22,401 nucleotides of DNA from a virus (IMGVR_UViG_3300008339_000549:1-22401), one strand, 5' to 3'; counted from the stretch's first letter, positions 13,393-21,234 are shown. The notes: generated from the letters alone by a model not told the origin. Numbers and translations: made by a program.

Positions 13393-13719
13393 ATGGCATT
13401 CAACTGGGTTATCTCACAATTAGATACATTTCCATTATTAGATGGAATGGAAAAAGTAATTATAGCAATTCACTGGAGAGCACAAAAACAATATCAAGAA
13501 GATGTAATTCATTTTACGGCAGACACCTACGGCAGTATGTTAGTCGATGCTCCACACGAAGCGAGCTTCACTCCTTACGATGAGGTTACGAAAGAAATGG
13601 TCGAAGGCTGGTTATCAGATTCATTGGATACCGTATCAATCGAGGCGAATTTGGATAGTCAAATTGAAAACTTTTTGAATCCTCCGATTGTGGCTTATCC
13701 ATTGCCGTGGCAATCATAA
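13393..13719 (+). CDS. Fibre-adjacent phage protein, unknown function
   Basis: The 108-residue product begins MAFNWVISQLDTFPLLDGM and includes IHWRAQ and a C-terminal LDSQIENFLNPP. Small proteins with this layout (N-terminal FNWV, central V-x-H-W-R, ending in a helix and an NPP turn) recur beside tail fibre genes in several phage groups. I know of no assigned function. The start follows the fibre stop by one base, so it probably belongs to the receptor-binding unit, for instance as an assembly factor or a virion-surface protein. No signal peptide or membrane helix is present. Confidence 0.6.
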   Translation: MAFNWVISQLDTFPLLDGMEKVIIAIHWRAQKQYQEDVIHFTADTYGSMLVDAPHEASFTPYDEVTKEMVEGWLSDSLDTVSIEANLDSQIENFLNPPIVAYPLPWQS

Positions 13720-14048: not shown

Positions 14049-14336
14049 ATGGCATTTTTAGACATTTTCAAGGATGACAATGAAATCAACGAGAAAGCAA
14101 TCCTAGGATTTGCATCGTTCGGTGTCTTAATGGTTTACGGCATTGCTGATGTTGTGACTGGGTTAGAGCAACAACAATTTGTTATCGAGCCAATTATCTT
14201 AGAGGTATTTGCAGGCTTAACATTTGGATGCTTTGGCATCGCAAGCTATGAGAAAGTAGCAAACCGTAAAACGGATGCAGAGCGTGAAAAAAACTTGCAA
14301 GGTGGATTAGCTCCATTGCCTGAAGATGAAGGTTAA
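14049..14336 (+). CDS. Holin candidate
   Basis: The 95-residue product has two predicted membrane segments (about residues 17-38 and 48-66) separated by a short loop containing ELQQ-type polar residues. A charged cytoplasmic-style C-terminus (KTDAEREKNLQGG) follows. This is the plan of a class II holin, which forms inner-membrane holes that release the endolysin. Support is positional: a spanin-like protein and a signal-less endolysin follow immediately. The gene overlaps the next by 11 bases. No sequence family is clear, so another small membrane protein is possible. Confidence 0.6.
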   Translation: MAFLDIFKDDNEINEKAILGFASFGVLMVYGIADVVTGLEQQQFVIEPIILEVFAGLTFGCFGIASYEKVANRKTDAEREKNLQGGLAPLPEDEG

Positions 14337-14931
14337 TATAGCCCTTTTCATTTGTTGTATGATTGCTATCTTCTATGCTTATACAAAGCATAAGCAAGCA
14401 GGAGAGGCAAAGCCAAACGATACGCTCGTTGTACACGATACAACTTGGAAAAGATACGATTCAATAATCGTAAAGAAAGTGCCTGTATTAAAAGAGGTTA
14501 TTGTCGAGGTAGCATCTAAACCTGAGATGCTACCAGACACAAACTACGCTAATTTAAAAAGGCAATACATGGCTTTGCTTCAGTTGTATATGAATAAGGT
14601 TATTTATTCAGATACAATACGAGTAGGCAATTACGGATACATTGCAGTTTTAGATTCAATTCAAAATAATAAATTAACAAGCAGGCGCACTCGTGAGAAC
14701 TATCAGATACCTGAGATTAAAGAAACAAAAACTATCACACGCTATTTACCGCCATCACGAGCTTTGTTTGTGGGTGGTGGAATTAATACGAGCAACTCAA
14801 TAGGAATCAGAGGTATCGAGGCAGGAATCATTTACAAGACAAAGAAGGACGCATTGCTTAATGTCAAGGCTCAAGTCGATTTAGATGGGCAACCATTGTA
14901 CGGCTTTGGCTATTATCACAAAATAAAATAG
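14326..14931 (+). CDS. Membrane-anchored, spanin-like periplasmic protein
   Basis: The 201-residue product has one N-terminal membrane segment (about residues 3-19, ALFICCMIAIFYAY). A charged periplasmic region with helical stretches follows (about 50-125). The C-terminal part (about 145-201) consists of Gly- and aromatic-containing alternating strands ending YGFGYYHKIK, similar to the edge of a beta barrel. Position between holin and endolysin suggests a role in envelope disruption, like a spanin that links inner and outer membranes. The barrel-like C-terminus is unusual for classic spanins, and I see no separate o-spanin lipoprotein embedded here. Function is inferred. Confidence 0.5.
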   Translation: MKVNIALFICCMIAIFYAYTKHKQAGEAKPNDTLVVHDTTWKRYDSIIVKKVPVLKEVIVEVASKPEMLPDTNYANLKRQYMALLQLYMNKVIYSDTIRVGNYGYIAVLDSIQNNKLTSRRTRENYQIPEIKETKTITRYLPPSRALFVGGGINTSNSIGIRGIEAGIIYKTKKDALLNVKAQVDLDGQPLYGFGYYHKIK

Positions 14932-14933
14932 AT

Positions 14934-15782
14934 ATGCTTTTAAGAGTAGGATCAACAGGGGATGATGTCGTTAAACTTCAAGTAAAACTTGGTGTCGATC
15001 CGATAGGTAAATTTGGCCCAAAGACAGAGGCCGCAGTTAAGGGCTGGCAATCAGCTCACGGCTTAACACCTGATGGCATCGTAGGCGATGCAACGTGGAG
15101 CAAGTTATTTGCTGAAGTGACACAAGTACCCACTCCGCAAGTTATCGTTCAACAAGAACCAACTATCGTGCCTACAAGCGGATTCAAATTAGATAGATTG
15201 GTAGGACATATTCCGCAAGCGGTAATAAATCAAATACCTGACACCGCAGCGAGGTTTGGAATTACAACCTCTTTGCGCCTTGCTCACTTCTTGGCTCAAT
15301 GCGGACACGAATCAGGAGGCTTTAGAGCGGTAAGTGAAAACCTAAACTATTCAGCAAAAGGATTGCTAGGTATTTTTCGCAAGTATTTTACAAATGTAAA
15401 CTTGGCGATGCAATACGAGCGCAAACCTGAGAAGATTGCTAACCGTGTTTATTCATCTAGAATGGGTAACGGCAATGAAGCATCAGGCGAAGGATGGAAA
15501 TTTAGAGGTCGTGGCTATATTCAATTGACAGGCAAGGACAATTACAAAGCATTTGATGCTACCGTAGGCGAAGATATTCTTGCTAATCCTGATTTAGTAG
15601 CAACTAAATACCCATTAGCATCGGCTGCATTCTTCTTCAAGCGTAACAATCTATGGGCAATCTGCGATAGAGGTGCATCGATGGATGTAGTAACGGCAGT
15701 AACTAAGCGAGTAAATGGCGGAACAATTGGACTTGCCGACAGACAAAAGCATTTTAAAGAATACTATAATTTATTAGCATAA
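14934..15782 (+). CDS. Endolysin: peptidoglycan-binding domain + GH19 lysozyme/chitinase
   Basis: The 282-residue product has an N-terminal peptidoglycan-binding domain (about residues 1-60; GSTGDDVVKLQ, GKFGPKTEAAVKGWQ, GIVGDATW) and a GH19 catalytic domain (about 85-282). The likely catalytic glutamates are E126 in GHESGGF and E186 in GEGWKFRGRGYIQLTG, the latter a strong family signature. GH19 phage enzymes cut the glycan strand of peptidoglycan. There is no signal peptide, so release should depend on the holin encoded upstream. The stop shares a base with the next start (TAATG). This is the most secure enzyme call in the window. Confidence 0.92.
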   Translation: MLLRVGSTGDDVVKLQVKLGVDPIGKFGPKTEAAVKGWQSAHGLTPDGIVGDATWSKLFAEVTQVPTPQVIVQQEPTIVPTSGFKLDRLVGHIPQAVINQIPDTAARFGITTSLRLAHFLAQCGHESGGFRAVSENLNYSAKGLLGIFRKYFTNVNLAMQYERKPEKIANRVYSSRMGNGNEASGEGWKFRGRGYIQLTGKDNYKAFDATVGEDILANPDLVATKYPLASAAFFFKRNNLWAICDRGASMDVVTAVTKRVNGGTIGLADRQKHFKEYYNLLA

Positions 15783-15910
15783 TGGCAAAGGCAAAAGCAG
15801 GTAATGGCAACCAAAAAATTTCATTCGGATCTAAGAAAAAAGGAAAGGCTAAAAGAGCTTTTTCCAAATACGAGCAGAAACCAAAACGTTATAAAGGTCA
15901 GGGACGATGA
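15782..15910 (+). CDS. Very basic 42-aa protein linking lysis genes to the envelope cassette
   Basis: This short frame starts at the ATG overlapping the endolysin stop and ends in TGA at 15910, overlapping the next ATG (ATGA). The product is MAKAKAGNGNQKISFGSK at the start and KPKRYKGQGR at the end, with 15 Lys/Arg in 42 residues. Small basic proteins ending in -YRGQGR or -YKGQGR are a recurring feature of Bacteroidetes phages in my recollection. They may bind nucleic acid or be virion proteins. A longer frame in another reading frame (15804-15992) is a shadow of this gene. Confidence 0.6.
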   Translation: MAKAKAGNGNQKISFGSKKKGKAKRAFSKYEQKPKRYKGQGR

Positions 15911-16422
15911 ACAACGCATTTGCAATTACCGCCAAGATTGTTTCTCTTATCATTGGCATGAGTTTTACGGTACAAACTTATTTCATTTATAAGCACTTTT
16001 TTCCAACTGAGCCTATTACGGTTGCGCCAGTTGAAAACAAAGTACAGATAGGGGCTTTAGCAGGTAATCGCAATCTAGCGTTTGGAGTTAAAAACATATT
16101 AGAAGAATATCTTGTCGTAAAGGATTACGATTTAGGCGATGGATCGGATAAGGTGCTAAAGGTAGAAATCCTTTATTTAGATGTTTATAAGCGTGAGGCT
16201 AACCTATCTATCTTTCACGGTGCAACTGAGGCGGTTGTAATTCGATTAAGAGGCACGTTATACAACAAGGGTAAGGTAGTAAGCAAGGCAATAGTAGAAG
16301 AGCAAGCAGAGGAGGTATCTATGTCTACATTGCTAATTGATGAAGGCGGACAATTTAATCAGCAAAATCTTTCAAGTGCCTTAAAAAAATCGTGTAACTC
16401 CTTAATCAATAAATTGCTTTGA
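15907..16422 (+). CDS. Membrane-anchored protein with CsgG/curli-assembly-like periplasmic half domain
   Basis: The 171-residue product has one N-terminal membrane segment (about residues 7-30) without a cleavage site, leaving a periplasmic domain. After a Pro-rich linker, the order of elements parallels the exported CsgG-family protein encoded at 18842: a helix NLAFGVKNILEEYL (57-69), strands VLKVEILYLDV (83-93) and AVVIRLRGTLYNKGKVV (109-125), then a final helix NLSSALKKSCNSLINKLL (154-171). This fits a shortened CsgG-like or YajG/LptE-like alpha/beta domain, but sequence identity is low. It opens the envelope cassette, overlapping both neighbours by four bases. Confidence 0.45.
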   Translation: MNNAFAITAKIVSLIIGMSFTVQTYFIYKHFFPTEPITVAPVENKVQIGALAGNRNLAFGVKNILEEYLVVKDYDLGDGSDKVLKVEILYLDVYKREANLSIFHGATEAVVIRLRGTLYNKGKVVSKAIVEEQAEEVSMSTLLIDEGGQFNQQNLSSALKKSCNSLINKLL

Positions 16423-18185
16423 AAAATCTTCTCGCCTTTGCCTTTTGCTTAATTAGCCTTTCAGCTAATAGCCAAACCATAAAGTTGTATTTCCAAAACG
16501 ATTCAACGAATCTAAACGTAAATGGCAATGTAATTAATAAGGGCGATTTATTTGATGTCGTTGTATTTGCGGACGGCAATGGTAATACATCATCACGCTC
16601 TTTGTATTTTGATTTCGAATTTCAAAACACGGCATTTGATTTTGTATCTATAAATCATACTGGCACAATGGGCAACGGTGGTATTATTCCAGCAGGCTCA
16701 CAAGTAAGCCAATCACATTTCTTATATCCGGGTTATTCATTTAATAAAACCACATCTAACAGTACAATCAACGGCAACACAAACTACAACTTTGCTCAAT
16801 ATACTTTTACGCAAGGAGGCCCAAAAACAATCCTGCGTTACTATCTAAACTGGGCAGTTACGCAAGGCGGTTTAGGCAAAGATAGATTAGTAGTAATGCG
16901 CTTTAGATTAAAAGCTACCGCTCAAGGCTTTGCGTGGAATCCAATCTTAATGAACTTCGGAGCAAGCTTTAATCAAAACGGCTCGAATGGTTCAACGGAA
17001 ATGACAACTCCATTGACTAACGTTATTCTTTTAGATCCTACGGCTTCCAAATATGTCACGGCTACGTTAGACAATAACACAAACATTGATGCGCTTACAC
17101 TCAATCGTGTAGTGTTTGAGGATACGCTAAGAAAAACAATGTATAAAGTGGATGCTTTAGGTAATGGAACAATTCCAATCGATCAAACTCAGCTAAAACC
17201 GAACACGGTTTATAGGGTTTATAATAGTGTAAACGCTGATAGTTACCTAGATTTACACGCAGCAGCGGTAACGGTGTCAGATTATACAACCGCACAAGCT
17301 GAGTTTAATAGTCAAAACCTAGATGGCACATTTAAAGGGCAATCAATTATAACTGGCGCAGGCTATTACGCATCGGATATTAACAAAAACAAAAAGTTTG
17401 ATGGGGGCGATGTGGTCAGGATATTCTCGCAAGCGGTAGGAGTTGATGCTATTGTTAGTCTACCTTCTAATTATGTAGCAAGCACAGATATGTATATACC
17501 AGTTGCAACGTTTACTGATTCAACTTTTAACGAATTAAGCGCATCTAATTGGAAGGATGCAAACAATGTTGTCTATTTTAAAACATCAGAGATAGGGAAA
17601 AACCTACCTTTAAAACTTAAATACGTTTTAGAAGGGGATATAAACCGTTCACATTCATCGCAGGTTATGATTGGAAGTGAGATAGCAACAAACGCAGTAC
17701 CTTCTTTACGTAAAAATCTAGGCTCGCCTCAAGCTAATTTGCTAATCAATACTAAGCAACCTATACAATCAATAAACGTAAACATTAAAAGCCAAGTAAT
17801 TCAAGGCAATAGCATTGAAGTTCCTGTTGCGCTTGACACTAAATCCCTTGCCGTTTCTGCGCTTCAATTTGAGTTTGAATATGATGCTACCAAATTAAAA
17901 TTTGAGAGCCTTACAAACGAATTGCCGAACACTTGGTACACGTTTGTGAATAACAAAGAGGGCAAGATTAAATTCGGATCGATTGACAAGGATGTTAAGA
18001 ATCCTATTACTGGGGTTTTAACACCTTTTAAATTAAGGTTTAGCTCAATTAATAACGGAAACGACTTAAATACGTTTATTAAAGTGAGTCCAGTTATGGA
18101 TGCCAGCTCTAAAACTGGCTACCAATTAGGCATAAATCTTAATACTGAATCAATTAGATTGCTAGGAATTAATTTATTTCAATGA
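16419..18185 (+). CDS. Secreted protein with two cohesin-like domains and a dockerin-like calcium loop
   Basis: The start is TTG at 16419, overlapping the upstream TGA. It gives a complete signal peptide, MKNLLAFAFCLISLSANSQ, whereas no in-frame ATG is near, so the rare start is well supported. The 588-residue product has an N-terminal beta domain (about 25-205) resembling a cohesin. At 320-331 it has DINKNKKFDGGD, which fits an EF-hand/dockerin calcium loop with acidic or Asn residues at positions 1, 3, 5, 9 and 12. A C-terminal cohesin-like domain spans about 450-588 (IEVPVALDT, ALQFEFEYDATKLKFE). Cohesins and dockerins bind each other to assemble surface complexes. It is probably exported and calcium-stabilised. 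I see no clear T9SS sorting domain. Confidence 0.65.
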   Translation: MKNLLAFAFCLISLSANSQTIKLYFQNDSTNLNVNGNVINKGDLFDVVVFADGNGNTSSRSLYFDFEFQNTAFDFVSINHTGTMGNGGIIPAGSQVSQSHFLYPGYSFNKTTSNSTINGNTNYNFAQYTFTQGGPKTILRYYLNWAVTQGGLGKDRLVVMRFRLKATAQGFAWNPILMNFGASFNQNGSNGSTEMTTPLTNVILLDPTASKYVTATLDNNTNIDALTLNRVVFEDTLRKTMYKVDALGNGTIPIDQTQLKPNTVYRVYNSVNADSYLDLHAAAVTVSDYTTAQAEFNSQNLDGTFKGQSIITGAGYYASDINKNKKFDGGDVVRIFSQAVGVDAIVSLPSNYVASTDMYIPVATFTDSTFNELSASNWKDANNVVYFKTSEIGKNLPLKLKYVLEGDINRSHSSQVMIGSEIATNAVPSLRKNLGSPQANLLINTKQPIQSINVNIKSQVIQGNSIEVPVALDTKSLAVSALQFEFEYDATKLKFESLTNELPNTWYTFVNNKEGKIKFGSIDKDVKNPITGVLTPFKLRFSSINNGNDLNTFIKVSPVMDASSKTGYQLGINLNTESIRLLGINLFQ

Positions 18186-18538
18186 GAAATTTAATAATCT
18201 TCACGGTTTTGCTGGTGTTTGCATCTTGTACTGAGCCACAAATCGTGGTTATTGAGCCGATCGGACTAGGAGAAAACCCTCAAGTGAATGCAATTATCGG
18301 TTATTCGGTAGTAAATAACACGGCACACGTTAAAGCAAAGACAACAATCGGTGCTAAATACTCTCTACAATTGTCTAAACTAGGACAATCTGAGCCTATA
18401 AAAGCGCAAGGATTTACGGCAACTGCTGAAGAATCTAACCTTGTAATTAGTTTTGATAAAACGGAAGCAGGCATTTACGATTTAATTTTACTAGACATAA
18501 GCGGAAACGCATCTAAATTACCCATAAACATCAAATAA
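18182..18538 (+). CDS. Predicted small lipoprotein of the envelope cassette
   Basis: The 118-residue product has a short signal peptide ending LLVFASC, with C16 as the candidate lipidated cysteine. The -3 residue is Phe, slightly off the usual Leu/Val. The mature part is a beta-rich Ig-like segment with alternating polar and hydrophobic residues, ending LILLDISGNASKLPINIK. No acidic surface-export signal follows the cysteine clearly, so it may stay on the periplasmic face of the outer membrane. It overlaps the cohesin-like gene by four bases. It might anchor the secreted protein or partner the CsgG-like protein; this is inference from location. Confidence 0.6.
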   Translation: MRNLIIFTVLLVFASCTEPQIVVIEPIGLGENPQVNAIIGYSVVNNTAHVKAKTTIGAKYSLQLSKLGQSEPIKAQGFTATAEESNLVISFDKTEAGIYDLILLDISGNASKLPINIK

Positions 18539-18539
18539 A

Positions 18540-18848
18540 ATGGCAGAAGAACAAGAAGGCGGAGGCTCATTAAAGAGCATCCTTATCGGATTAGCAAGCA
18601 CAATCGCACTAGGTGTAGGCGGATTTGTTACAAAACAATTAACAGGCGAAGAAGAGGCAAGCCCAGCACCTGCATCGGTGTCAGCTCCTGCACCTGTTAT
18701 TAACATTACAACAAACAATACTCAGCAACAAAAGCAAGCATCAGGCGGAGGCACAAAGATTGTTGAGCGTGTGGTAGAAAAACCAGCAAAAGAAAAACCA
18801 AAAGCTCCAACGGCTAAAGAAGAATTAGAGAAAGCTCCACAATGGTAA
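18540..18848 (+). CDS. TM plus Pro/Lys-rich protein, TonB-like in shape
   Basis: The 102-residue product has a short acidic/Gly N-terminus and one membrane segment (about residues 12-30, ILIGLASTIALGVGGFV). A Pro/Ala-rich stretch (about 40-50), an Asn/Gln-rich segment, and a Lys/Pro/Glu-rich end (VERVVEKPAKEKPKAP) follow. This is the outline of a TonB-type energy transducer or periplasm-spanning linker, but it lacks a folded C-terminal TonB domain. It could bridge the inner membrane to the outer-membrane partners encoded next to it. It starts one base after the lipoprotein stop and overlaps the CsgG-family gene by seven bases. Confidence 0.5.
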   Translation: MAEEQEGGGSLKSILIGLASTIALGVGGFVTKQLTGEEEASPAPASVSAPAPVINITTNNTQQQKQASGGGTKIVERVVEKPAKEKPKAPTAKEELEKAPQW

Positions 18849-19549
18849 AATGGACTATTTGCTTATTGCTCTTGTCGTTGTCTTGCTTTGGGCAGATAGC
18901 TTCGACAAAGACTGAAAGCTACACGGCATCCTTTGAGAAGAAGATAAACATCGATTCTTTAATGGATTATGATGGGCCTAAAATCCCTATTCAATTACTC
19001 TCGCTTGGTATAAGTGAAGAAGTGTACGCATCCTATCCAGAGCTAAAAGATAAGCGTGTCGGGCTTGGTGTAACTAACATTGTTGTTGAGTTCCTAGAAG
19101 AAACTAATCGCTTTACATTTACTGAAGATAAGGCAGAGATTAAGAATAGAATGGTTAAGCAATTCCAAGCAAGCCAGTCGGGTATCACAGAAAACAAATT
19201 AGATGGGAGAGGCAAGATAAAGCTCGCACAATACTTTGTTTATATTGAGGTTTATGATTTTAGCGTAAGCGAAGATGAATCAATCAGCTTTAAGGATGGA
19301 GTAAAGCAAACCGTAGTTACAAGATTAGGCTTGCAGGTTAAGTTTGTGAATGCTGAAACAGGCGAATACTTTACAGGCTCAGGGCTAGGCGAAGCAAAGA
19401 CAACAAGAGAGGCTACGCTCATGAACGATGGCAACTTTGCAGAGATTAAATTCAACCAATCAACAATCGGAAGCACCACAAAGAAAGCATTAGAAAACGC
19501 ATCTGCTAAAATCATTGTTCGAATGATTAAGAAAAAGCTATTCAAATGA
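18842..19549 (+). CDS. Exported CsgG-family (curli-type secretion channel) protein
   Basis: The 235-residue product has an N-terminal signal peptide (MVKWTICLLLLSLSCFGQ). Cys15 lies near the cleavage site, but the -3 position does not fit a standard lipobox, so cleavage by signal peptidase I after G17 is also possible. The mature part follows CsgG-like order: helix GLGVTNIVVEFLEETNRF (74-91) before an acidic segment, strands AQYFVYIEVYDF (129-140) and RLGLQVKFVNAETGEYFTGS (161-180), and a final helix STIGSTTKKALENASAKII (207-225). The 'V-x-x-ETGE' strand turn is typical of the family. CsgG forms a nonameric outer-membrane channel for curli export; whether this shorter version forms a pore is unknown. 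Confidence 0.6.
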   Translation: MVKWTICLLLLSLSCFGQIASTKTESYTASFEKKINIDSLMDYDGPKIPIQLLSLGISEEVYASYPELKDKRVGLGVTNIVVEFLEETNRFTFTEDKAEIKNRMVKQFQASQSGITENKLDGRGKIKLAQYFVYIEVYDFSVSEDESISFKDGVKQTVVTRLGLQVKFVNAETGEYFTGSGLGEAKTTREATLMNDGNFAEIKFNQSTIGSTTKKALENASAKIIVRMIKKKLFK

Positions 19550-20748
19550 AATGGCTTGCCGTGTTGTTTACATTTGTAACTGCTACGGCTTCGGCTCAAG
19601 TATTAACTCAAACCTTTATCGATCCTTGCTCTGGGCAGGTAACGGTTGTAACCGTTCCGCTCGCTAACGGTAGAACAACAATCATTTATCGTGGTAGGTT
19701 TAGAACGGTAACGGCTAACGATATTACATCGGGAGAACTACAAGCGTGGATAAATAATTTAACGGTAAACTTTCCGTGTCCACAAGCGCAGGTTGCAGTC
19801 CAACAAACGGTCACTAATGCCGTACAACAAGCGGTTGCACAAGCCACATCACAAGCAACAAGTCAGGCTACAAGTCAAGCGGCGAGCTCAGCAGTCGCTG
19901 CATCCGTATCGGTAGCACCGCCTCCGCCTGCACCTGCACCTGCATCTGCTCCTGCATCAAGTTCATCTTCTTCTACACCACAAGCCGAATCTAAAAGTGA
20001 AACTAAAACTGAATCATCTGAAACTAAGGCGGAGTCTAAAAGTGAAGAGAAGAGCGAATCGAAAAGTGAAAGCAAATCTGAAAAGAAATCTTCGGCTAAG
20101 AGCCAAGCTAAAGTTAATCCGATTATTTATTCATCTGATTTTACGGTTGCCCCTTCTACTGATGTTTTACAGATCATTGCTTCCGTTGGTTTTAGTCAGT
20201 CTAGTTTAATGGGCAATAGCTCGTGGGGTGTTAGCTCTATGATATGGAGCACGTTTGACCAGTTTGCATTGTCAGGCAGATACACGAAAATGAACTTTGT
20301 AGAAGGCAAGCTACAATCAATTTCAAATTATGGCCTTACAGGGGTTTATTTAGGCGGAAGTGTGCTAGGCTTTGGCACGGCTGCATATATCCTACCTATG
20401 GGCAAATATGGGGTATCAGGTGCGAACTATACTTTCTCGGTTGCAGGTGCGGATGTAGGGCTTAATTTATCTAATAACATATTGCTATTTTATACAATAC
20501 CAATTAAAGTTAATAAGCGTTTGACTATATCGCCTGATGTTTACATTTCGGGATCATCAACCGGCTATCTAACCAATCAAAAGCTATTTATTATTTCGGA
20601 TGATGTAGGCTTTTTAACTGGCGCATCGTTTGATTTTGCGCTTACAAAACGCTTTAAATTTAACTTTGCACTCAAGACTGGCTTTAACACGAATCCGCAA
20701 GTGCCTATAAATTATCTTGGAATGATAGGAACTAAAGTAAATTTATAA
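19546..20748 (+). CDS. Outer-membrane beta-barrel candidate with low-complexity periplasmic/surface linker
   Basis: The 400-residue product has a signal peptide (residues 1-18, MKWLAVLFTFVTATASAQ). A ~75-residue N-terminal domain ends with FPCPQAQVAVQQTV. A Gln/Ala/Thr/Ser repeat follows (about 85-115, QATSQATSQATSQ), then a Pro/Ala run (about 122-138) and a Ser/Lys/Glu repeat (about 146-190). From about 195 to 400 alternating aromatic/Gly strands resemble an eight- to ten-strand outer-membrane barrel. It is the last gene of the cassette and ends 60 bases before a strong terminator. It could be a surface anchor or pore. The C-terminal residue is Leu rather than the usual Phe, so a barrel is likely but unproven. 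Confidence 0.55.
   Translation: MKWLAVLFTFVTATASAQVLTQTFIDPCSGQVTVVTVPLANGRTTIIYRGRFRTVTANDITSGELQAWINNLTVNFPCPQAQVAVQQTVTNAVQQAVAQATSQATSQATSQAASSAVAASVSVAPPPPAPAPASAPASSSSSSTPQAESKSETKTESSETKAESKSEEKSESKSESKSEKKSSAKSQAKVNPIIYSSDFTVAPSTDVLQIIASVGFSQSSLMGNSSWGVSSMIWSTFDQFALSGRYTKMNFVEGKLQSISNYGLTGVYLGGSVLGFGTAAYILPMGKYGVSGANYTFSVAGADVGLNLSNNILLFYTIPIKVNKRLTISPDVYISGSSTGYLTNQKLFIISDDVGFLTGASFDFALTKRFKFNFALKTGFNTNPQVPINYLGMIGTKVNL
19840..20115 (+). repeat. Low-complexity coding repeat
   Basis: This stretch encodes a tandem QATS unit (about residues 99-113), a Pro/Ala run, and a Ser-Lys-Glu repeat (about 146-190, units such as SKSE and KTES). It contains related short DNA repeats such as 'tctaaaagtgaa', which could vary by slippage. 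Confidence 0.7.
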
Positions 20749-20807
20749 TTACTTTTGTGAGGTTAATGATTTTTTTCATAAATGTAGGTTTAGAACATAC
20801 AATCGAA

Positions 20808-20838
20808 AGGCTTGAGGTATTGCTTCAAGTCTTTTTTA
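20808..20838 (+). terminator. Strong intrinsic terminator ending the late operon
   Basis: AGGCTTGAGG (20808-20817) pairs with CTTCAAGTCT (20823-20832) over ten base pairs with two G-U wobbles and loop TATTG. A run of six T starts at 20832. It lies 60 bases after the barrel gene and 53 bases before the next -7 box, so it separates the late and early units. Confidence 0.85.
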
Positions 20839-20847
20839 TTACCTTAT

Positions 20848-20928
20848 AAAAAAAGATTAAAAAAGATTTTTTTATTTCAAATGTTTTTTGTATCTTTGAA
20901 TTACAATAGCAACGAAGCTATTCTAAAC
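20848..20928 (+). repeat. Promoter-leader repeat, copy 1
   Basis: An A-rich track with gattaaaaaagatttttt is followed by a T-rich spacer, the -7 box, ATAGC-AACGAA-GCTAT and ctaaac. The same order recurs at 21143-21223 with only scattered changes. Both copies end shortly before an early gene start. Confidence 0.85.
20891..20922 (+). promoter_or_regulatory. Early promoter 1 with transcript-start hairpin
   Basis: TATCTTTG (20891-20898) exactly fits the Bacteroidetes -7 element TAnnTTTG. The expected -33 position is T-rich rather than a clear TTTG. AATAGC (20905-20910) and GCTATT (20917-20922) then form a 6-bp hairpin around AACGAA. The transcript would start near 20904, putting the hairpin at its 5' end. 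Confidence 0.65.
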
Positions 20929-20939
20929 CAACCCAAAAA

Positions 20940-21128: not shown

Positions 21129-21142
21129 TATATAATCAATAA

Positions 21143-21223
21143 AAAAAAAGATTAAAAAAGATTTTTTATTACAAATAATAGATAGATATTTGAATCACGA
21201 TAGCAACGGAGCTATTTCTAAAC
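21143..21223 (+). repeat. Promoter-leader repeat, copy 2
   Basis: This repeats copy 1 (20848-20928): an A-rich track with gattaaaaaagatttttta, a spacer, a -7-like box GATATTTG (21185-21192), then gaatcacg and the hairpin ATAGC-AACGGA-GCTAT (21200-21215). The loop differs by one base from copy 1 while the inner stem is unchanged. Confidence 0.85.
21185..21215 (+). promoter_or_regulatory. Early promoter 2 with transcript-start hairpin
   Basis: GATATTTG matches TAnnTTTG except for its first base. The 5-bp hairpin ATAGC/GCTAT lies eight bases downstream. Its position relative to the box matches copy 1, which supports a shared regulatory role. Confidence 0.55.
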
Positions 21224-21234
21224 TACATAAAACA

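Follow-up and report, generated by a model that had tools for sequence, protein, structure and literature searches.

A phage gene cassette that encodes a cohesin-like protein, a predicted CsgG-fold protein, and a predicted outer-membrane barrel

Genes for CsgG are carried by pelagimyophages (HTVC008M) and by the Methylophilales phage Melnitz (PMC7029224, PMC9004378), and aggregation of cells ("sibling capture") and the timing of lysis have been proposed as roles of the phage CsgG (PMC7029224, PMC9004378). Cryophage encodes cargo with type-A sorting domains of the type IX secretion system (T9SS), including one protein with a PA14 domain, and a function in exclusion has been suggested (PMC7468147).

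Virus fragment IMGVR_UViG_3300008339_000549:1-22401, the whole 22,401 nucleotides of which are referred to here as the window, contains a cassette of six genes, numbered g1 to g6 in the 5' to 3' direction. As in the csgF-csgG loci of HTVC008M and Melnitz, a gene for an exported protein with a predicted CsgG fold is found beside other genes for secreted proteins, outside the virion genes. However, HTVC008M and Melnitz have a true CsgG, with 37-40% identity to the CsgG of E. coli, together with CsgF and curlin-repeat genes, whereas g5 is without detectable CsgG sequence similarity and its partners are a cohesin, a lipoprotein, a transmembrane protein, and a barrel. Sister cassettes share phage-encoded T9SS type-A sorting domains with Cryophage, but the Cryophage proteins are products of single enzyme or cargo genes, whereas the cassette is a conserved multigene module. 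Furthermore, g2 of the window is without a sorting domain and the lipoprotein g3 resembles one instead.

The presence of a cohesin and a dockerin-type calcium loop on secreted proteins of one cluster recalls the cohesin-dockerin scaffolds of the cellulosome type, but in the cassette there is no catalytic cargo, the partners are lectin-like, the dockerin duplication is incomplete, and binding is putative. In a similar manner, g6 resembles FapF, NalP, and EspP in having a predicted 12-stranded outer-membrane barrel after a helix and a linker, but it has no detectable sequence relation to them and possesses its own N-terminal domain with a cysteine pair and a long Ser/Glu/Lys linker. A literature search, in which coverage was thin for subscription journals, found no description of the module, and a search for phage cohesin/dockerin or FapF systems found no such system. 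There is a fair chance that the module deserves a class of its own.

Operon layout and neighboring lysis genes

The window is a fragment of a tailed phage, in which portal, major capsid, tape measure, and tail-fibre genes are followed by lysis genes and the cassette (Table 1). A gene for a DUF7936 protein (positions 13393-13719; Pfam, 7.8e-21) is located directly after the tail-fibre gene. A previous reading made from the sequence alone (the sequence-only reading) had described six genes on the plus strand joined by short overlaps or a gap, and all were as described, with overlaps of 4, 4, 7, and 4 bases and one 1-base gap at the junctions; the reading frames are conserved as protein families. 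The start codon of g2 is TTG, and relatives start at the equivalent place. The position after the lysis genes was also correct, but a seventh gene, of 42 codons, had been missed. Its ends overlap the stop codon of the endolysin gene and the start codon of g1, so the lysis genes to g6 are continuous, in an unbroken chain from the holin-like gene through the genes for the 201-aa protein, endolysin, and 42-aa peptide. By tblastn, 130 fetched loci encode the 42-aa peptide, in most cases in the interval from the endolysin to g1.

Table 1. Features of the window in and around the cassette
Feature	Positions	Strand	Description and basis
Holin-like gene	14049..14336	+	95 aa, two transmembrane helices; first gene of the upstream lysis block; read from sequence
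201-aa protein gene	14326..14931	+	N-terminal transmembrane helix, periplasmic part, beta-rich C terminus; spanin-like candidate
Endolysin	14934..15782	+	PG_binding_1 (Pfam, 1.9e-12) and Glyco_hydro_19 (7.1e-9); PHROG endolysin (2.6e-73)
42-aa basic peptide gene	15782..15910	+	Overlaps endolysin stop and g1 start; read from sequence
g1	15907..16422	+	Membrane-anchored or exported periplasmic domain; probable short g5 paralogue; alignment and profile match
g2	16419..18185	+	Secreted; cohesin-like N-terminal domain, dockerin-like middle, C-terminal cohesin
g2 dockerin-like Ca-loop DINKNKKFDGGDVV	17376..17417	+	Motif; equivalent position in most relatives
g2 Pfam cohesin match	17802..17987	+	Residues 462-523
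g3	18182..18538	+	Lipoprotein; body resembles T9SS type-A sorting domain
g4	18540..18848	+	One transmembrane helix; Pro/Ala/Lys-rich tail with invariant Trp at the end; alignment of 20 relatives
g5	18842..19549	+	Exported protein, predicted CsgG fold; AlphaFold2 model and PDB structure comparison
g6	19546..20748	+	Signal peptide, small N-terminal domain, helix, linker, predicted C-terminal outer-membrane barrel
g6 barrel domain	20122..20745	+	Residues 193-400
Intrinsic terminator	20805..20838	+	Operon end; folding energy versus shuffles

The strong terminator that had been noted 3' of the cassette was recovered by folding (minimum free energy, -16.5 kcal/mol; z, -3.5), with 0 of 200 shuffles equally stable, although a consensus terminator scanner made no call at this site despite the stability of the fold. 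No promoter had been visible after the endolysin, and no Bacteroidota-type promoter pattern was found between the endolysin and g1, but the pattern was not commoner than chance in the window, and scans of the window for sigma-70 and Bacteroidota promoters performed no better than on shuffles. The cassette shares the lysis operon, so its expression in the window phage is probably late, as had been proposed. Farther downstream, two 91-nt direct repeats (20848-20938 and 21142-21232) that are 71% alike are each located just upstream of a small gene; both contain a ATAGCAACGAAGCTAT-type hairpin and are probably repeated promoter/leader units.

The 95-aa holin-like gene was conserved beside the cassette and in some relatives was directly upstream of g5. 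The 201-aa protein, a candidate for a Bacteroidota spanin-like protein, was conserved upstream of the endolysin. It also adjoins an M15 peptidase in phage record MW202828, in which no cassette gene is annotated.

Several other genes were observed in or beside the cassettes of relatives. Many relatives encode, between g4 and g5, a second holin-like protein of ∼120 to 210 aa (L185:11288-11905 and equivalents), with two transmembrane helices, a IDYWFSDTDKDKMLVQKMDEEDG core, often a C-terminal CxxCG, and no Pfam family. Separate lineages encode secreted DNA/RNA nonspecific endonucleases within the cassette or next to it (L041:8958-9572, Pfam 4.9e-41; L096:8708-9334; L092:9935-10513). In one locus a class-3 lipase gene (L053:6170-6952) is immediately 3' of g6 and is followed by an amidase gene, and in another a 199-aa look-alike of GIY-YIG homing nucleases, recognized by eye, is encoded between g4 and g5 (L019:7213-7812).

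Spread of the cassette among phages

Each of the six products belongs to a protein family found in dozens to hundreds of viral contigs, and this conservation indicates that g1 to g6 are genuine genes. Relatives of g1 were present in 387 viral stretches; those of g5 numbered 109 in one scan of viral contigs and at least 509 confirmed IMG/VR stretches in an alignment-based scan, with the proviso that many IMG/VR contigs are fragmentary and that they do not count as independent samples. The neighborhood search that the sequence-only reading had proposed found g1, g2, g4, and g5 on the same strand in all 106 distinct viral loci and in the same order in 105 of them, within fetched loci that span only 8 kb on either side; g6 was located after g5 in 96 of 97 loci. 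In the two most divergent members, inspection of motifs revealed probable g1-like genes adjoining g5 and g6. Thus, the combination that had been considered worthy of attention is indeed a conserved one, but it is a widespread module rather than a feature unique to the window phage.

When 84,980 bacterial and archaeal species genomes were scanned, only two MAG contigs had the cassette. One, of 12.6 kb, carried the whole cassette and an endolysin, and in the other, of 254 kb, a GH19 endolysin adjoined the cassette; both are probably phage. A T4-type major capsid protein was present in 4 of 35 carriers, and the portal of the window was common to only 2 of the 35. Nevertheless, g5 was ∼85% identical between the window and a T4-like carrier (L041). 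The occurrence of the module in T4-like and unrelated carriers, with unrelated capsids and portals, indicates that it moves between unrelated phages. The module is widespread in unrelated phages and almost absent from bacterial genomes.

Among sequenced phages, tblastn found no match to g1 or g2, and g5 matched only Flavobacterium phage immuto, a 160-kb phage with a cultured Flavobacterium host that is also one of the carriers with a T4-type capsid protein. In immuto, genes for a secreted nuclease, a lectin with a dockerin motif, a cohesin-like/dockerin-like protein, and a protein with cohesin and sorting domains are followed by g4, g5, g6, and a g1-like gene identified by motif alone; this cassette is located among genes for replication and nucleotide metabolism. 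Flavobacterium is also the host for one of the MAG contigs. The carriers infect freshwater Bacteroidota, and we infer that the host of the window phage belongs to the Bacteroidota as well.

Predicted properties of the cassette products

The sequence-only reading regarded g5 as an exported member of the CsgG family. An AlphaFold2 model of moderate confidence (pLDDT, 64; pTM, 0.58) had a CsgG-type fold: in Foldseek comparison with the PDB the top 11 matches were all CsgG (E, 8e-7), and VIA aligned 167 residues with CsgG (Z, 11.7; rmsd, 4.2). CsgG was best in three comparisons, followed by FlgT, PelC, and LptE, which are periplasmic proteins of related fold. However, the sequence of g5 did not match CsgG in Pfam, NCBIfam, or a PDB profile search, hhalign comparison with CsgG gave a probability below 1, and PDB profile searches with g5 and with g1 found nothing; the CsgG assignment of g5 therefore rests on structure prediction. 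An N-terminal cysteine for lipidation was not conserved among 22 relatives, and the signal, judged like all signal peptides here by eye, ends in an AQ-type site. The regions corresponding to the amphipathic membrane hairpins of CsgG are similar to them in length. The first carries charges, including an EDE motif that is invariant, and had a lipid-face score of -0.02 versus 0.56 in CsgG; the second scored 0.45 versus 0.54, and clear membrane hairpins may be absent. The most suitable description of g5 is a periplasmic protein with a predicted CsgG fold, whose status as a pore is putative. The description of the cassette as curli-like was not upheld, given the lack of sequence similarity between g5 and CsgG and the absence of CsgA, CsgB, CsgE, or CsgF partners from the six products in Pfam and NCBIfam searches.

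The product of g1, previously described as an anchored CsgG-like half domain, is a probable short paralogue of g5. A first hhalign comparison was weak (probability, 10), and larger alignments, which extended across the entire g1 domain, raised the probability to 33-63 (E, 7e-5 to 4.5e-4; ∼120 columns; controls at most 5.7), which is still not proof, so that the half domain is suggested only through a moderate match to the g5 profile. The membrane anchor is not universal; many relatives have a signal peptide of the cleavable type.

The description of g2 as a secreted cohesin/dockerin-like protein was supported by a match to Cohesin PF00963 above the cut-off (Pfam, 8.7e-7; 29.7 bits versus 24.1), the only named family in single-sequence Pfam, PHROG, and NCBIfam scans of g1 to g6. 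Hence both folds whose absence the sequence-only reading had named as a refutation, a predicted CsgG fold and a cohesin, were found, and the reading was not refuted. Thirteen of 20 relatives of g2 matched the cohesin at an E value of 0.01, and the top two matches in a PDB profile search were a cohesin and a dockerin, at weak E values of 0.36 and 0.46. The N-terminal domain is cohesin-like at a moderate level (probability, about 50). The middle of the protein is homologous to the C terminus of a lectin-dockerin protein (E, 2e-19) and has one canonical calcium loop and a degenerate second one, GDxNxSHSS, an incomplete duplication; Dockerin_1 was matched in a relative only, below the cut-off.

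The T9SS sorting domain PF18962 was absent from g2 of the window. In 8 of 20 sampled relatives g2 ends in Por_Secre_tail, which was also detected on gp15 of immuto (5.4e-9), and the profile of the g2 sorting domain also finds solved T9SS sorting domains. In the loci with sorting domains, the gene after g6 often encodes a secreted protein that contains a C-type lectin, PA14, or GEVED domain (Lectin_C, 1.9e-15; PA14, 1.3e-10; GEVED, 1.1e-11), and the lectin and GEVED forms carry a dockerin-like module at the C terminus. A lectin-type gene was present in 22 of 28 sorting-domain loci; the window locus has no lectin gene.

That g3 is a lipoprotein, as had been proposed, is indicated by an invariant lipobox cysteine, Cys16. 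Alignment of g3 with the T9SS sorting-domain profile gave an hhalign probability of 93 (E, 3e-7), versus at most 54 for other and reversed controls, and the highest control value came from the g2 family, some members of which carry the sorting domain. Eighty-two loci had g3 only, 28 had the sorting domain only, 4 had neither, and none had both. On the g5 tree this pattern needs five parsimony switches. Only two of them are independent events on branches with good support, not enough for a sign test to reach significance, so that the replacement of the g2 sorting domain by g3 is a striking but statistically unproven pattern. In the most economical interpretation, g3 would hold or deliver g2 at the outer membrane, as the sorting domain does elsewhere. 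A relation of g3 to GhpA, the grappling-hook protein of Aureispira, was rejected because the PDB match (E, 2.6e-4) covered 34 residues and was too short.

The previous descriptions of g4 and g6 were also sustained. The transmembrane helix, charged proline-rich tail, and terminal tryptophan of g4 recur among its aligned relatives. In g6 the N-terminal domain contains a conserved cysteine pair and is followed by a helix, the Ser/Glu/Lys linker, and the barrel, which is predicted to be 12-stranded and of the autotransporter/FapF type (pLDDT, 67 overall and about 80-87 in the barrel). Foldseek placed FapF first (E, 1.9e-7), and VIA-align placed the NalP/EspP translocators first (Z, 23.9), with FapF at Z 19. 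No family was above the cut-off for the g6 sequence in Pfam or NCBIfam. Weak matches of g6 to GltJ and DDHD stem from the low-complexity linker, and these candidates were rejected.

Possible functions of the cassette

We lean toward the view that the six products form an envelope-spanning complex that, at a late stage of infection, exports adhesive cohesin/dockerin proteins to the surface of the Bacteroidota host cell or anchors them there. In such a complex, g4 would be in the inner membrane and g1 and g5 in the periplasm, where g5 might form a ring, and g6 would provide the outer-membrane barrel, with its long linker and N-terminal domain reaching back to g1 and g5. The surface scaffold would be g2, held by the lipoprotein g3 in the window phage and by the type IX sorting domain in sister phages, in which dockerin-tagged lectin, PA14, or GEVED proteins might dock onto it. 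Surface display had been one of the roles suggested from the sequence, and the sorting domains and lectin-dockerin genes of sister cassettes strengthen it, although the function is deduced from sequence. The phage would probably gain by making infected cells and their debris adhere or aggregate, or by shielding receptors from other phages; the sequence would fit adhesion, aggregation, and exclusion alike. A wider proposal, which we put forward tentatively and with less confidence, is that the cassette encodes a mobile, almost exclusively viral apparatus of a kind not recognized before, common to unrelated Bacteroidota phages. It would span the envelope with CsgG-fold periplasmic proteins, an inner-membrane anchor, and a transporter-type barrel and would build a cohesin-dockerin-lectin layer on the infected cell, in some lineages through the T9SS of the host.

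An alternative is that g1 to g6 form an envelope-bridging complex that breaks or perforates the outer membrane after the holin and endolysin have acted, with the cohesin protein in a structural or regulatory role. We kept this explanation, which we consider unlikely, because lysis genes are within reach of the cassette in 77 of 85 testable loci and genes of lysis type intrude into it. The cassette of the window is in one operon with the holin-like, transmembrane/beta, and endolysin genes, relatives have second holin-like, class-3 lipase, amidase, and secreted nuclease genes in or beside it, and the CsgGF pore of Melnitz has been proposed to act in lysis (PMC9004378). However, the cassette of immuto is surrounded by genes for replication and nucleotide metabolism, endolysin and cassette are encoded on opposite strands in one clade (L075-L080), and the 201-aa protein and a peptidase co-occur in a record without an annotated cassette gene, so that lysis seems not to need the cassette. 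Furthermore, the sorting domains and lectins would have no obvious use in rupture, and domains for sugar binding and sorting are better matched to adhesion.

The same complex might serve instead to coat the cell, with a cohesin/lectin layer that hides receptors or traps incoming virions. The evidence for surface display applies here too, interchangeable sugar-binding partner domains would suit such a coat, and the T9SS cargo of Cryophage has been suggested to act in exclusion (PMC7468147). The position in a late operon is odd for this purpose, and we consider such a coat rather improbable as the main benefit. Superinfection exclusion is usually an early function. It is even harder to regard the products as virion-associated proteins, which would cross the envelope or cover the particle once the cell has lysed. 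Tail-fibre genes do adjoin the cassette in some loci, but Sec-type or lipoprotein signals are kept on four products across divergent relatives, g6 is a predicted membrane barrel, the capsids and portals of the carriers are unrelated, and the virion parts of tailed phages are normally assembled in the cytoplasm; this explanation is very improbable.

If the proposed export and adhesion complex is correct, many Bacteroidota phages, including the isolate immuto, would remodel the surface of infected cells through dedicated machinery, and an explanation would be at hand for a large block of environmental phage genes that lack annotation. The puzzle of curli genes in pelagimyophages would then be tied to a wider phenomenon of phage-driven surface display, and the T9SS would be a delivery route that phages use with a multigene module. 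The role of export pores in phages becomes testable in a culturable phage-host pair.
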